Positions 25,639 to 34,400 of a DNA stretch of 64,000 bases are shown one piece after another. The notes under the pieces were generated by a model. The model searched no databases and was not told where the DNA came from. It saw only the letters and a list, made by a program, of their open reading frames with translations. The DNA comes from Pirellulales bacterium (GTDB lineage Bacteria > Planctomycetota > Planctomycetia > Pirellulales > JACPPG01). The DNA lies in NCBI GenBank assembly GCA_035546535.1, contig DASZWQ010000060.1, positions 1-64,000 on the forward strand, given 5' to 3'. A program made the position numbers and the translations under genes. The number at the start of each line of letters is the position of its first letter. The first letter of the stretch is position 1.

Positions 25639-25948
25639 CACACAGCGAACACGAGCAGCGGGTTCTCAGACGCCGCTAGCTGCGTACTCCGTCGCGCGAA
25701 AGTGCGCTTGTGACCCATGACAAAATGCCGCGCGGATTAGCGCTTGGTAAGGTCTGTGTCGGCGTAAGTCTTGTTCCCACAATGCTGGCATAGCGATAAA
25801 TGCCATTGTGTGTGGCGTGCCCTCCCGTTAGTATCCCGCGCCTTTTACCTTTCCAGCGAACCTACGCCCCCAGTCTTTGCAACCTCGCGCTCGCTGCTGC
25901 GCCGTGGTAGGCGATCGAGCATGCGCTTGGTTCGAGAGGAGCGCCGCT
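25639..25948. other. Intergenic region upstream of the porin gene, no gene seen
   Basis: A 310-bp gap between the ClpP-like gene and the porin, both on the plus strand. No frame has conserved features. It presumably carries the porin promoter, but no clear -35/-10 pair or operator could be defended. Confidence 0.4.
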
Positions 25949-28057
25949 ATGCGGTTGCGCGCGTCCGGGCCCGCAAACCGGGGAATTCGTCCGACGCGCG
26001 CCTGGCGGGCGCTTGCGGGGCGAGCCTCCACGGTAAGCGTGGCCTCCTGCGCCGGTACGTCTTCGACGTGGCTGGCGTACGCGCTATTGGCTAGTTTCGC
26101 CTGGTTTGCCCTGTCGCGCGCGCACGCATTAGCTGCTGATCCCGTATCACAACCAGGTTCGGCACCGGGGATTGCCGGCGGACAAACTCCGTCGCAGCAG
26201 CACCAGGTTCAAGCTCAGTTTCAGGCGCCGCAGACAGCGTCACCGCCGGCGCTGCCTGCACCAGCACCAGGAACGCCGCAGCCCTGGTCGCCGCCGATAT
26301 TGCCTGGCGGCGTACCGCAGCAGATCCTCGAGGGTGGCCGGCAATTCGATCCGTCGATCATGCCCGCCGCGGCCACGAGTCCGGCTGCGGGTGTCAGCGC
26401 TCTTGTACCGATCAGCGGCGCATTGGCAGGCGCTTCACTCAAACCGTTTAATTCCGACACTGTAACAACGCCGCAGCAGCAGCCGGTCCAGCCGCAGCAG
26501 CCGCCGCTGGCTTCAGCGACCCCCGCCTCGTACGTCGCACAGGTCCCCGGACAATCGCCGGCGGGAGTTAACCCTGACGACGCTCCGTCACCGGGTCTCG
26601 GTCTAACAACGACCGACATCTTGCAACGACTGCAAGCCGCCGAAGCCGAGTTGGCGGCGCTCCGCGAGCAGATGGTGCCGCGCGATCAGCGCCTGGCATC
26701 CTTGGAGGACGCCGCCAAGAAAGCCGAGGCCGCCGCCGTGGTGCCCTTGCCACTGATCCGGCTTAGCGGTTTTTTTCAATACGACACCGGCTGGTTCAGC
26801 CAGGATATCAACAGCAAGGACGTGCTGGGCAATATCCAAAACGGCACCGGCTTCCGCCGCACCCGTTTGCAAGGGCTAGGCCAGCTCACCGAGTTCACCA
26901 CCTTCAGCATCGAAATGGACTTCGCTTTCCCCGGCCGTCCCAGCTTCATGGACGTATGGGGTGAGCAAGCCAATTTGCCAATCGTCGGTCACGCCCGCAT
27001 CGGCCAGTATCGCCAACCGGTAACGATGGACTCGTGGACCAACATCAAGCACCTGGAATTCCTCGAACGATCCGCGCCGTTCATCGCCATGGATCCCTTC
27101 CGCCGCGTCGGCATCATGGGCTGGGACAACAGCGATGATGAGCGCACGATGTGGGCTTACAGCTTGTTCGGCACCGGCTTCACGTTCTGGAACGGCGGCT
27201 CGAGTCAGGTGTACAGCACCGAAGGCAACGACAACCGCTTCGGCACGCAGCTGGGGGATAGTGGCGGAATTTCCTTCGCGACGCGCGCCACGCATCTGCT
27301 CTATTACGATCCAAATCCGAATCCCTTGGCCCGAGACCGCTATTTGCTGCACGTCGGCGGCGGTTACCTGTTCGGCGAACTCGGCGGCGAAGGGACCACC
27401 GGAACCAATGCGAAAGCGTACGAAGCGCGCACCATCCCAGAATTCTTCGTCGGCGATCAGGCGGGCGGATTCTTGACCGCGGCCGGCACGCCGAACGTGG
27501 TCGACACGGGCCGCTTCCTGGCCACTCATTACCAGATGATGCACGCCGAGCTTGCGGGAAGCTGGGGGCCGGCTCACTTTCAAGCAGAGTACATGGCGAC
27601 CTTCGTCCAACAACTGGGCGGAGGAAACGTCTTTCTCGACGGCGGCTATATCCAGGGGGGTTATTTCCTCACAGGCGAAAACACCGGCTACAACAAGATG
27701 CTCGGCGCGCTCGACTACAACGTGATACCGCATACCCGGTTCTTTGGCATCGGTCGCAAGAAGGGGCTATGTGGTTGGGGCGCTTGGGAGATGGCGGCCC
27801 GCTGGTCATGGCTCGATTTGAGCTCGACGCAAATCCGCTCGAGCAACTACGTGGCCGGGCAAACGACGTTTCCCACCTCGGCGCCGCCGCCGCAGATTAA
27901 TCCGGGCGTGCTCAACGAGCCGACCGTCGCCCTGAACTGGTGGTGGAACGAGTATATGCGGGTGCAGTTCAACTACATTCACTCGATGGTGCAAACCAAC
28001 ACCAGCGGCTTCTACTCGACGGACATCTTCGCCCTGCGATTCCAAACGGAGTTCTAA
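25949..28057 (+). CDS. OprP/OprO-type porin with coiled-coil N-terminus
   Basis: A protein of 702 residues from ATG 25949, with GAGAGGA 8 nt upstream; the frame is open 24 codons further up. An unusually long N-terminal part holds a hydrophobic signal segment (about 42-62), a Pro/Gln-rich low-complexity region (about 65-210) and a coiled coil (about 215-255, LQRLQAAEAELAALREQM). The outer-membrane barrel then spans about 270-702: LSGFFQYDTGWFSQD, GFRRTRLQGLGQ and a final strand ending in Phe (RFQTEF). This is the Porin_O_P family layout, whose members include phosphate-selective porins. The coiled coil may anchor it to the cell wall. A structured repeat follows the stop directly. Confidence 0.85.
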   Translation: MRLRASGPANRGIRPTRAWRALAGRASTVSVASCAGTSSTWLAYALLASFAWFALSRAHALAADPVSQPGSAPGIAGGQTPSQQHQVQAQFQAPQTASPPALPAPAPGTPQPWSPPILPGGVPQQILEGGRQFDPSIMPAAATSPAAGVSALVPISGALAGASLKPFNSDTVTTPQQQPVQPQQPPLASATPASYVAQVPGQSPAGVNPDDAPSPGLGLTTTDILQRLQAAEAELAALREQMVPRDQRLASLEDAAKKAEAAAVVPLPLIRLSGFFQYDTGWFSQDINSKDVLGNIQNGTGFRRTRLQGLGQLTEFTTFSIEMDFAFPGRPSFMDVWGEQANLPIVGHARIGQYRQPVTMDSWTNIKHLEFLERSAPFIAMDPFRRVGIMGWDNSDDERTMWAYSLFGTGFTFWNGGSSQVYSTEGNDNRFGTQLGDSGGISFATRATHLLYYDPNPNPLARDRYLLHVGGGYLFGELGGEGTTGTNAKAYEARTIPEFFVGDQAGGFLTAAGTPNVVDTGRFLATHYQMMHAELAGSWGPAHFQAEYMATFVQQLGGGNVFLDGGYIQGGYFLTGENTGYNKMLGALDYNVIPHTRFFGIGRKKGLCGWGAWEMAARWSWLDLSSTQIRSSNYVAGQTTFPTSAPPPQINPGVLNEPTVALNWWWNEYMRVQFNYIHSMVQTNTSGFYSTDIFALRFQTEF

Positions 28058-28206
28058 CAGCCTGTTGAAGAACTCAACGGGCTGCGACATCGCAGGGATG
28101 CGATGGCAAAATATCGACGTAAGTCGTTATTTTGCGCGCCGTGCGAAGCTTTGCTTCGCACTTGGCGAGGTTGAAAAAAGCCACGAGGGCTTTTTTCAAC
28201 AGGCTG
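28058..28206 (+). repeat. 149-bp element forming five consecutive hairpins
   Basis: Flanked by 12-bp perfect inverted ends, CAGCCTGTTGAA (28058-28069) and TTCAACAGGCTG (28195-28206). Inside, five hairpins follow each other: (1) 28058-28068/28074-28084, 11 bp with one G-T pair; (2) 28088-28094/28099-28105, 7 bp, loop GGGA; (3) 28106-28113/28128-28135, 8 bp, plus CGAC/GTCG closing a GTAA loop; (4) 28141-28149/28153-28161, 9 bp, loop TTT; (5) 28170-28182/28188-28200, 13 bp, loop ACGAG. The element starts directly at the porin stop codon. It could act as a transcript terminator or stabiliser, or be a non-autonomous mobile element. Confidence 0.8.
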
Positions 28207-28267
28207 CTAAGCCCGCGGCGATTCACACGCCGACTTCGCCGGCCCAACTGCACCAACACTCGAAGGT

Positions 28268-32830: not shown

Positions 32831-34369
32831 ATGGCCGAACAGACCGCTGAATCCATTGCTCAGCGCGCGTTCGACCTGAACTTGTTGTCCGATCGCCAGT
32901 TACAAGAAATCTGGGGCGAGTTCGGACGCCGCAACGTTACGGTCGACGAGTTTGTCCAGTTGCTGCTGCGGCGGGAGCTGATGACGAACTTTCAGCTCGA
33001 GCGCCTCCTGAAGGGCGAGCGGGGAGGCTATTTCTACGGCGATTACAAAGTGCTGTATATCGTCGCCGGCGGCAGCTTCGCGCGCGTCTATCGCGCGGTT
33101 CACAAAGATACGGGCAAAGTCGTGGCGCTGAAGGTCTTGCGCCGCCGCTTCAGCGACATCGCGGCGCAAACCGAACAGTTCTATCGCGAAGGCCTGATGG
33201 GCGTCTCGCTGCGGCACCCGAATATCGTGCCGATCTACGAGGCCGTCTCCAAAGGCAACCAGCATTACCTGGTGATGGAATTCGTCGAAGGGGGCAACTT
33301 GCGCGACTTCATGAAAGTGCGCAAGAAATTCTCCCCCATCGAAGCCACGAAGGTCGCCGTCGACATCGCCGCCGGCCTCGACTATGCGTATCAGCGCGGC
33401 ATCTCGCACCGCGATTTGAAGCTGACCAACGTGCTGCTCTCCAGCCGCGGCCAGGCCAAGCTGGTCGACTTCGGCCTGGCCGGTGCCGATGAAAAAATCG
33501 CCGACGAATCGATCACCGGGGAAGGAATCAACGCGCGAACCATCGATTATGCCGGGCTGGAACGCGCCACCGGCGTGCGCAAGGATGATGCGCGCAGCGA
33601 CATCTACTTCATCGGCTGCATTTACTATCACATGCTCTCCGGTCAGCCGGCCTTGCAAGAAACGCGCGATCGCATCCAGCGCTTGAGCAAGTCGCGGTTT
33701 ACCAGCGTGGTGCCGATCCACCAAGCTTGCCCCGGCATCCCACGCGTGGTGGCAACCGTGGTCAATAAAGCGATGAGCCTCGAACCGGAAAAGCGCTACC
33801 AGACTCCCGGCATGATGCACGCCGACCTCAGGCAGGCGGCCGATCGGCTGGCGGCCGGCGAGACCGAGGCCTTCAGCGGCGTCGAAGACACCGGCGCCCT
33901 TGACGCGCCGCTGACGCCCGAAGAGCAGATCAAACGCCAGCGCGAGGCTGCCCGCTATCTGCCCGACAGCCAGCGCCGGGCGCTGTTGGTGGTCGAGTCC
34001 AACTCGCAATTGCAGGACTTGTTTCGCGACGCCCTGAAGCGTTACGGCTATCGAGTCCTGGTGATCAGCGACCCGAAGCGCGGTGTGGCCCGCGCCGAGG
34101 ACACCAACAACGCGATCGACGGCGTGGTGCTCAGCACGGGGCACCTGGGCGATGCCGCCGTCGATGCCTTGATCGAACTGGCCGGCGGCGAACAGACCAG
34201 CAAGGTGCCTGTCGTGGTGCTGCTGGACGACAAGCGCAAGGCGTGGCGCGCGCAGATCGAGCCGCACTTGTGCGAGCACCGCGTGATCGTGTCGCTGCCG
34301 ATCAAGCTGCGCGAATTTCGCGACGTGCTGTTTCGCCTGGTGCCGCCCGTGGCGACGGCCGAGACTTAG
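32831..34369 (+). CDS. Ser/Thr protein kinase fused to a degenerate receiver domain
   Basis: A protein of 512 residues from ATG 32831; a longer upstream frame has no sense. An N-terminal helical domain (1-65) shares the pattern x-x-L-M/L-T-x-x-Q-x-x-x-L-L-x-G with the 613-residue kinase. The kinase domain (about 72-340) has glycine loop VAGGSFARVY (78-87), Lys101, HRDLKLTN (193-200) and DFG (213-215). The activation segment ends in YAGLER rather than APE. Residues about 383-505 have the beta-alpha layout of a response-regulator receiver, but the phosphoacceptor position is Ser435, the first acidic pair is E389-S390 and the conserved Lys is Leu489. The receiver is therefore not phosphorylatable and may be a binding domain. 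Confidence 0.88.
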   Translation: MAEQTAESIAQRAFDLNLLSDRQLQEIWGEFGRRNVTVDEFVQLLLRRELMTNFQLERLLKGERGGYFYGDYKVLYIVAGGSFARVYRAVHKDTGKVVALKVLRRRFSDIAAQTEQFYREGLMGVSLRHPNIVPIYEAVSKGNQHYLVMEFVEGGNLRDFMKVRKKFSPIEATKVAVDIAAGLDYAYQRGISHRDLKLTNVLLSSRGQAKLVDFGLAGADEKIADESITGEGINARTIDYAGLERATGVRKDDARSDIYFIGCIYYHMLSGQPALQETRDRIQRLSKSRFTSVVPIHQACPGIPRVVATVVNKAMSLEPEKRYQTPGMMHADLRQAADRLAAGETEAFSGVEDTGALDAPLTPEEQIKRQREAARYLPDSQRRALLVVESNSQLQDLFRDALKRYGYRVLVISDPKRGVARAEDTNNAIDGVVLSTGHLGDAAVDALIELAGGEQTSKVPVVVLLDDKRKAWRAQIEPHLCEHRVIVSLPIKLREFRDVLFRLVPPVATAET

Positions 34370-34400
34370 CAGCCTGTTGAATCTCTCAACAGACTGCTAG
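34366..34400. repeat. Palindrome carrying the stop codons of two convergent genes
   Basis: Arms TAGCAGCCTGTTGA (34367-34380) and TCAACAGACTGCTA (34386-34399) pair with a single mismatch around loop ATCTC. The first arm opens with the TAG stop of the kinase; the second ends with the reverse-strand TAG stop of the uracil-DNA glycosylase gene. The left arm is the same sequence that begins the five-hairpin element after the porin. It probably serves as a bidirectional terminator or mRNA end structure. Confidence 0.8.

Follow-up and report, generated by a model that had tools for sequence, protein, structure and literature searches.

Several families of short bacterial repeats offer points of comparison for the element described here. 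RUP, ERIC and Correia/NEMIS give highly base-paired transcripts, and RUP, whose ends are common to an autonomous insertion sequence (IS), is thought to be mobilized by IS630-Spn1; most described bacterial MITEs fold as a single long stem that pairs both ends (PMC2229807). For the bcr1-bcr18 repeats of the Bacillus cereus group, the passages of PMC3446304 that describe them present bcr1-3 as MITE-like and bcr10 and bcr18 as having conserved secondary structure, with about half of the repeat copies transcribed. The element at positions 28058-28206 of our window, a stretch of 64,000 nucleotides from a Pirellulales bacterium, resembles RUP, ERIC and Correia/NEMIS in its size class (100-200 bp), its lack of a transposase, its terminal inverted repeats, its target duplication and its mostly intergenic location. 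In contrast to those families, it consists of five separate hairpins in series that covary across the order, uses a YTAR target and has an interior without a clear IS origin. Since most described MITEs form one long stem, five separate covarying hairpins depart from the usual pattern. It also resembles the bcr repeats in being an interspersed MITE-like repeat, some of those families having conserved structure; however, it belongs to another phylum, and whereas MITE-like and predicted functional-RNA repeats fall into separate families in the bcr set as described in those passages, the Pirellulales element unites mobility and a covarying fold. MITEs are commonly taken for inert remnants of insertion sequences; in this one the interior, too, has been kept in shape across the order through paired mutations.

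Five hairpins between a duplicated target

The 149-bp element (28058-28206, + strand) adjoins an upstream ORF of the porin O/P family (25877-28057, + strand; PF07396, E 7.5e-23), and the original prediction was right that it abuts the stop codon of this gene, which is located at 28055-28057. The five consecutive hairpins proposed there were likewise recovered, all on the + strand. Stem 1 (28058-28084) has 11 bp and an AGAAC loop, stem 2 (28088-28105) has 7 bp, stem 3 (28106-28135) has 8+4 bp, stem 4 (28137-28167) has 9 bp, extended by a further 4, and stem 5 (28170-28200) has 13 bp in the form AAAAAAGCC-ACGAG-GGCTTTTTT, a predicted shape like that of a bidirectional intrinsic terminator. The loop is GGGA in stem 2 and GTAA in stem 3; viewed as a hexaloop, stem 2 presents AGGGAT at 28094-28099, the ANGGAN position. 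The minimum free energy of the whole element was -88.7 kcal/mol; 200 dinucleotide shuffles gave -50.2 +/- 4.0 (z -9.7), and not one of them reached so low a value.

The 12-bp inverted ends proved to be perfect repeats. The left repeat, CAGCCTGTTGAA (28058-28069, + strand), also serves as the 5′ arm of stem 1 and is near-identical to the ends of an autonomous IS described below; the right repeat occupies 28195-28206 on the - strand. A feature missed in the original prediction is the CTAA that flanks the element on both sides (28054-28057 and 28207-28210), a target-site duplication whose left copy contributes its last three bases as the porin stop codon. Rfam covariance models gave no match to the element at the gathering threshold or up to E 1, and the five-hairpin family was absent both from Rfam and from the literature searched.

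Copies, insertion sites and a likely partner transposase

The element is a repeat found across its own genome rather than being unique to the porin site. In the host assembly (6.36 Mb, 210 contigs, 97% complete), we found about 28 complete 149-bp copies that are 97-99% identical, together with further ones that end at contig ends. Their flanks are nearly always YTAR and mostly CTAG on both sides, with CTAA/CTAA pairs at three copies, a TTAG/TTAG pair at one and several mismatched pairs. Mismatches affect five of the nine informative non-CTAG pairs; these are expected from mutation or inter-copy recombination, yet they weaken the evidence for duplication that comes from flanks only. The orthologous porin gene in two congeneric genomes (G003 and G004) ends in GAGTTCTAG and is followed by unrelated intergenic sequence without the element. 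Taken together, the YTAR flank pairs and the empty porin site in two congeners indicate insertion with a 4-bp target duplication. Two contigs of the host genome (G000 C56 and C155; L003 and L013) share an identical first 141 bp, made up of a 125-bp flank, TTAG and the 12-bp terminal repeat. Beyond it the element runs one way in the first contig and the other way in the second, and the far flanks differ, a sign of inter-copy recombination, strain mixture or an assembly branch.

Using rough codon-usage gene calls made for this analysis, we placed the 26 copies with enough flanking sequence: one lies inside a predicted gene, nine coincide exactly with a stop codon, whichever way round the element is inserted, and 16 are intergenic. 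Nine of the 26 lie between convergent genes and six between divergent genes. Of the CTAG sites in the window, 18 are intergenic, eight fall on stop codons and 20 lie within genes; the copies thus have a stop-to-intergenic ratio (9 to 16) close to that of these sites (8 to 18), so that special targeting of stop codons need not be invoked. The element is found at stop codons because its YTAR target contains TAA or TAG and because damaging insertions are lost. This accounts for the contact with the porin stop codon that had been taken as a tie to a gene of highly expressed type, and a porin-specific role is ruled out, since the copies adjoin many different genes in both orientations.

A pattern search of relatives for YTAR next to an inverted repeat led to an autonomous IS of about 1.5 kb in other Pirellulales genomes, with near-identical ends (CAGCCCGTTGA or CAGCCTGTTGA), a YTAR target and a transposase carrying PF05598 (DUF772) and PF01609 (DDE_Tnp_1). 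The search first yielded a degenerate copy of 1.07 kb in G005. Six near-identical copies are present in G027, five of them flanked by CTAG/CTAG or CTAA/CTAA, and one intact copy flanked by TTAG/TTAG is present in G012; an incomplete copy occurs in G003, which belongs to the genus of the window. An intact copy flanked by CTAG/CTAG (L144, 1224-2763) resides in G013, a genome that also contains the MITE. The nearest NCBIfam models are IS1182 (195 of 270 bits) and IS5_4 (118 of 140 bits), both below their cut-offs, and by transposase sequence the partner IS family has its place between these two. It resembles both groups in its DUF772 and DDE_Tnp_1 domains; it differs from them in falling under both cut-offs, and the MITE has only the IS ends in common with it. 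A 4-bp YTAR target is typical of the IS5 subgroup. In G027, the transposase of the IS (L142, 826-2256) takes its stop codon TAG from the element's own CTAG target.

A search of the 210 contigs of the host genome (97% complete) for such a transposase gave nothing even at E 1e-5, and the MITE was not detected in G027 or G012, which hold the best intact IS copies; the detected presence of the two elements is reversed between these genomes and the MITE-rich host. A covariance model of the MITE gave no matches to the IS copies, and the two interiors share one weak match of 16 bp, which involves the degenerate G005 copy and has an uncorrected P of 0.005 in a set of 48 comparisons. With nothing beyond the ends in common apart from this weak match, the MITE is not a clear product of simple internal deletion from the IS.

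A solo hairpin of 27 bp at 34370-34396 of the window (no strand assigned), in which the terminal repeats stand back to back (CAGCCTGTTGA-ATCTC-TCAACAGACTG), lies between two convergent ORFs, and its flanking TTAG (34366-34369) and CTAG (34397-34400) each give one of the two stop codons. With similar hairpins in G005, it shows that the terminal ends can occur without the MITE interior.

On each feature open to testing, the element is a MITE, albeit one with an unusual and evolutionarily maintained architecture: it is 149 bp long, has no transposase, is present in many copies, carries perfect 12-bp terminal repeats with YTAR duplications and empty sites in G003 and G004, and has ends in common with an autonomous element (G013, G027, G012 and the degenerate G005 copy). 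Its mobility is well supported, and of the interpretations in the original prediction, a mobile palindromic element is the one sustained by the copies, the target duplications, the empty sites and the IS with matching ends in the order. The element is very probably a non-autonomous Pirellulales MITE served in trans by an IS5/IS1182-type DDE transposase, and the transposase encoded by the 1.5-kb IS with the same ends (DUF772 plus DDE_Tnp_1) is its likely mover. This enzyme would recognize CAGCCTGTTGA...TCAACAGGCTG in trans and place the 149-bp element at YTAR sites, most of them CTAG, with duplication of the 4-bp target; it would have acted in the host genome and have since been lost, or it would lie in an assembly gap.

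Compensatory changes and a fixed copy in tRNA arrays

Related elements with identities as low as about 69% were present in 12 of 58 sampled relatives. When 297 genomes of the order were searched with a covariance model, 65 gave hits at E up to 1e-4, weak matches included. Most single sequences fold unaided into five hairpins, and many families have the same number of hairpins in the same order. Across 39 elements, both sides of the pair had changed in 35 of 55 pairs, compared with 17.5 in shuffles, and compensating changes occurred in all five stems (6/11, 6/6, 8/12, 9/13 and 6/13 pairs for stems 1 to 5), as had been put forward for checking. Double-change cells numbered 194, against 48 in shuffled alignments and 23-38 in slid structures, the latter control being included because kinship alone can push sequences above shuffles, whereas sliding the structure preserves relatedness. 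Given that this alignment had been fitted to the structure, we repeated the analysis on a MAFFT alignment built from sequence with no use of that structure; the count was 85 double-change cells, compared with 27 for shuffled and 3-27 for slid controls. At the base of stem 4, opposed G-A pairs (GCGAGCC/GGCGAG) are replaced by a pairable GGCTCG in G013 and G039. Furthermore, another family of the order contains a relative of about 127 bp (L180, L184, L187, L204 and L205) that ends in CAGCCCGTGGA or CAGACTGTGGA, is mostly flanked by YTAR and has fewer or different stems, although its hairpin 2 often carries GGA in the loop.

The young copies of the host genome gave a different picture, with 25 distinct changes over 110 stem positions against 13 over 40 loop positions (P 0.42, low power) and with paired double changes absent. 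Our reading is that propagating lineages are constrained in their fold while single copies drift. A fold kept in propagating lineages together with broken pairs in young copies leads us to infer that the probable target of selection is the propagation or persistence of the element itself and not each neighboring gene. The compensatory changes point to selection on the folded shape, and an RNA-level role, as originally proposed, may exist; a function in transcript end, stability or attenuation for the porin is not indicated.

Five species of a single genus (G088, G192, G105, G071 and G035) have one diverged homologue beside tRNA-Asp within a long tRNA array, its other neighbor being Val(tac) in three species and Cys(aca) in two, as called by the same program; four congeners lack this copy. 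It has no recognizable inverted repeats, although a YTAR persists close to it in G192 and G035. In stems 2 and 5, G071 differs from the others by paired changes, in an alignment where stem 3 was out of register. The copies keep the GGA loop of hairpin 2, carry the GGA strand antisense to the tRNAs and have no stem 5 T-tract. The locus looks like a single old insertion that has retained its fold, and the copy may have been recruited in the array. The arrays themselves are very long (L183, L185, L197, L198 and L203), with as many as 19 tRNA genes within some 3 kb.

Alternative readings of the structure

Because the element is palindromic, extragenic and high in copy number, and because REP-type palindromic repeats have been reported in Planctomycetes (PMC3733652), we considered whether a tyrosine (HUH) transposase of the REP/RAYT or IS200/IS605 type moves it in the form of single-stranded DNA hairpins. 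This is very improbable: the terminal inverted repeats are perfect, the duplicated 4-bp target is variable, the same ends are found on a DDE insertion sequence, and in place of the constant GTAG tag at one end that defines REPs (PMC3733652) there is a variable YTAR at both ends. The element is not a REP. A different question is whether the compensatory changes could arise through hairpin-templated repair or template switching of DNA palindromes, leaving the fold itself unselected. Such an origin, consistent with the unprotected stems of the young copies and with counts that showed no strand asymmetry, is nevertheless unlikely, as the GGA-type loops of hairpin 2 persist during stem turnover, the series of hairpins is maintained across many families and the young copies are without paired double changes. 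Somewhat less doubtful, though still on the unlikely side, is the possibility that the hairpins insulate transcription: mainly through stem 5, which has an A-tract and a T-tract, they would terminate it in both directions and so make insertion beside genes tolerable. The A-tract/GCC-loop-GGC/T-tract form is retained in most lineages, and both the stop-codon copies and the copies between convergent genes speak for it. However, the share on stop codons is what CTAG sites in the window would predict (eight on stop codons to 18 intergenic), the copies between divergent genes do not fit, stem 5 was unlisted by a consensus terminator scan, the tRNA-array copies lack the T-tract, and stems 1-4 would be left unexplained.

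The conserved loop of hairpin 2 raises the further possibility of a structured regulatory RNA, in which hairpin 2 would bind CsrA/RsmA and the copies would be ligands or sponges spread by transposon ends. Among 39 elements, 25 have a loop here that matches ANGGAN and 37 a loop with GGA, on a covarying stem; A, G, G and A are kept while the N position is random (0.02 bits). An ANGGAN hexaloop is a described ligand of RsmE/RsmA, and RUACARGGAUGU is the SELEX consensus for CsrA (PMC7652899, PMC3791407). The host genome encodes nine CsrA-family loci, and the GGA loop survives in the fixed tRNA-array copies. The loop of stem 5, ACGAN, has a GA that is also invariant, so that the hairpin 2 loop is not the sole conserved loop. 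Like the ligand hairpins of RsmZ, CsrB and hcnA, hairpin 2 combines a short stem with an ANGGAN hexaloop, but those RNAs have many sites, whereas each element has one such hairpin, a putative site known from sequence. A promoter scan near the element gave no promoter-like site, in the arrays the tRNAs are encoded on the strand opposite to the one with GGA, and the counts of G-U against A-C cells (74 to 34 overall, 8 to 4 in young copies) give no clean strand signal. Such a regulatory role is accordingly doubtful, and rather more so is the fuller scenario of a selected RNA module, with a putative CsrA/RsmA site, that would have been captured by IS ends, spread in Pirellulales and been recruited in the tRNA array. 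If true, it would describe a mobile RNA element spreading through Pirellulales, with a fixed structure in the tRNA array of one genus. An interior kept in shape by paired mutations, with an almost invariant loop motif, opens the question of working RNAs among MITEs to direct test. The nine CsrA-family loci of the host genome (G000), for example L226-L228, all score above the Pfam cut-off.
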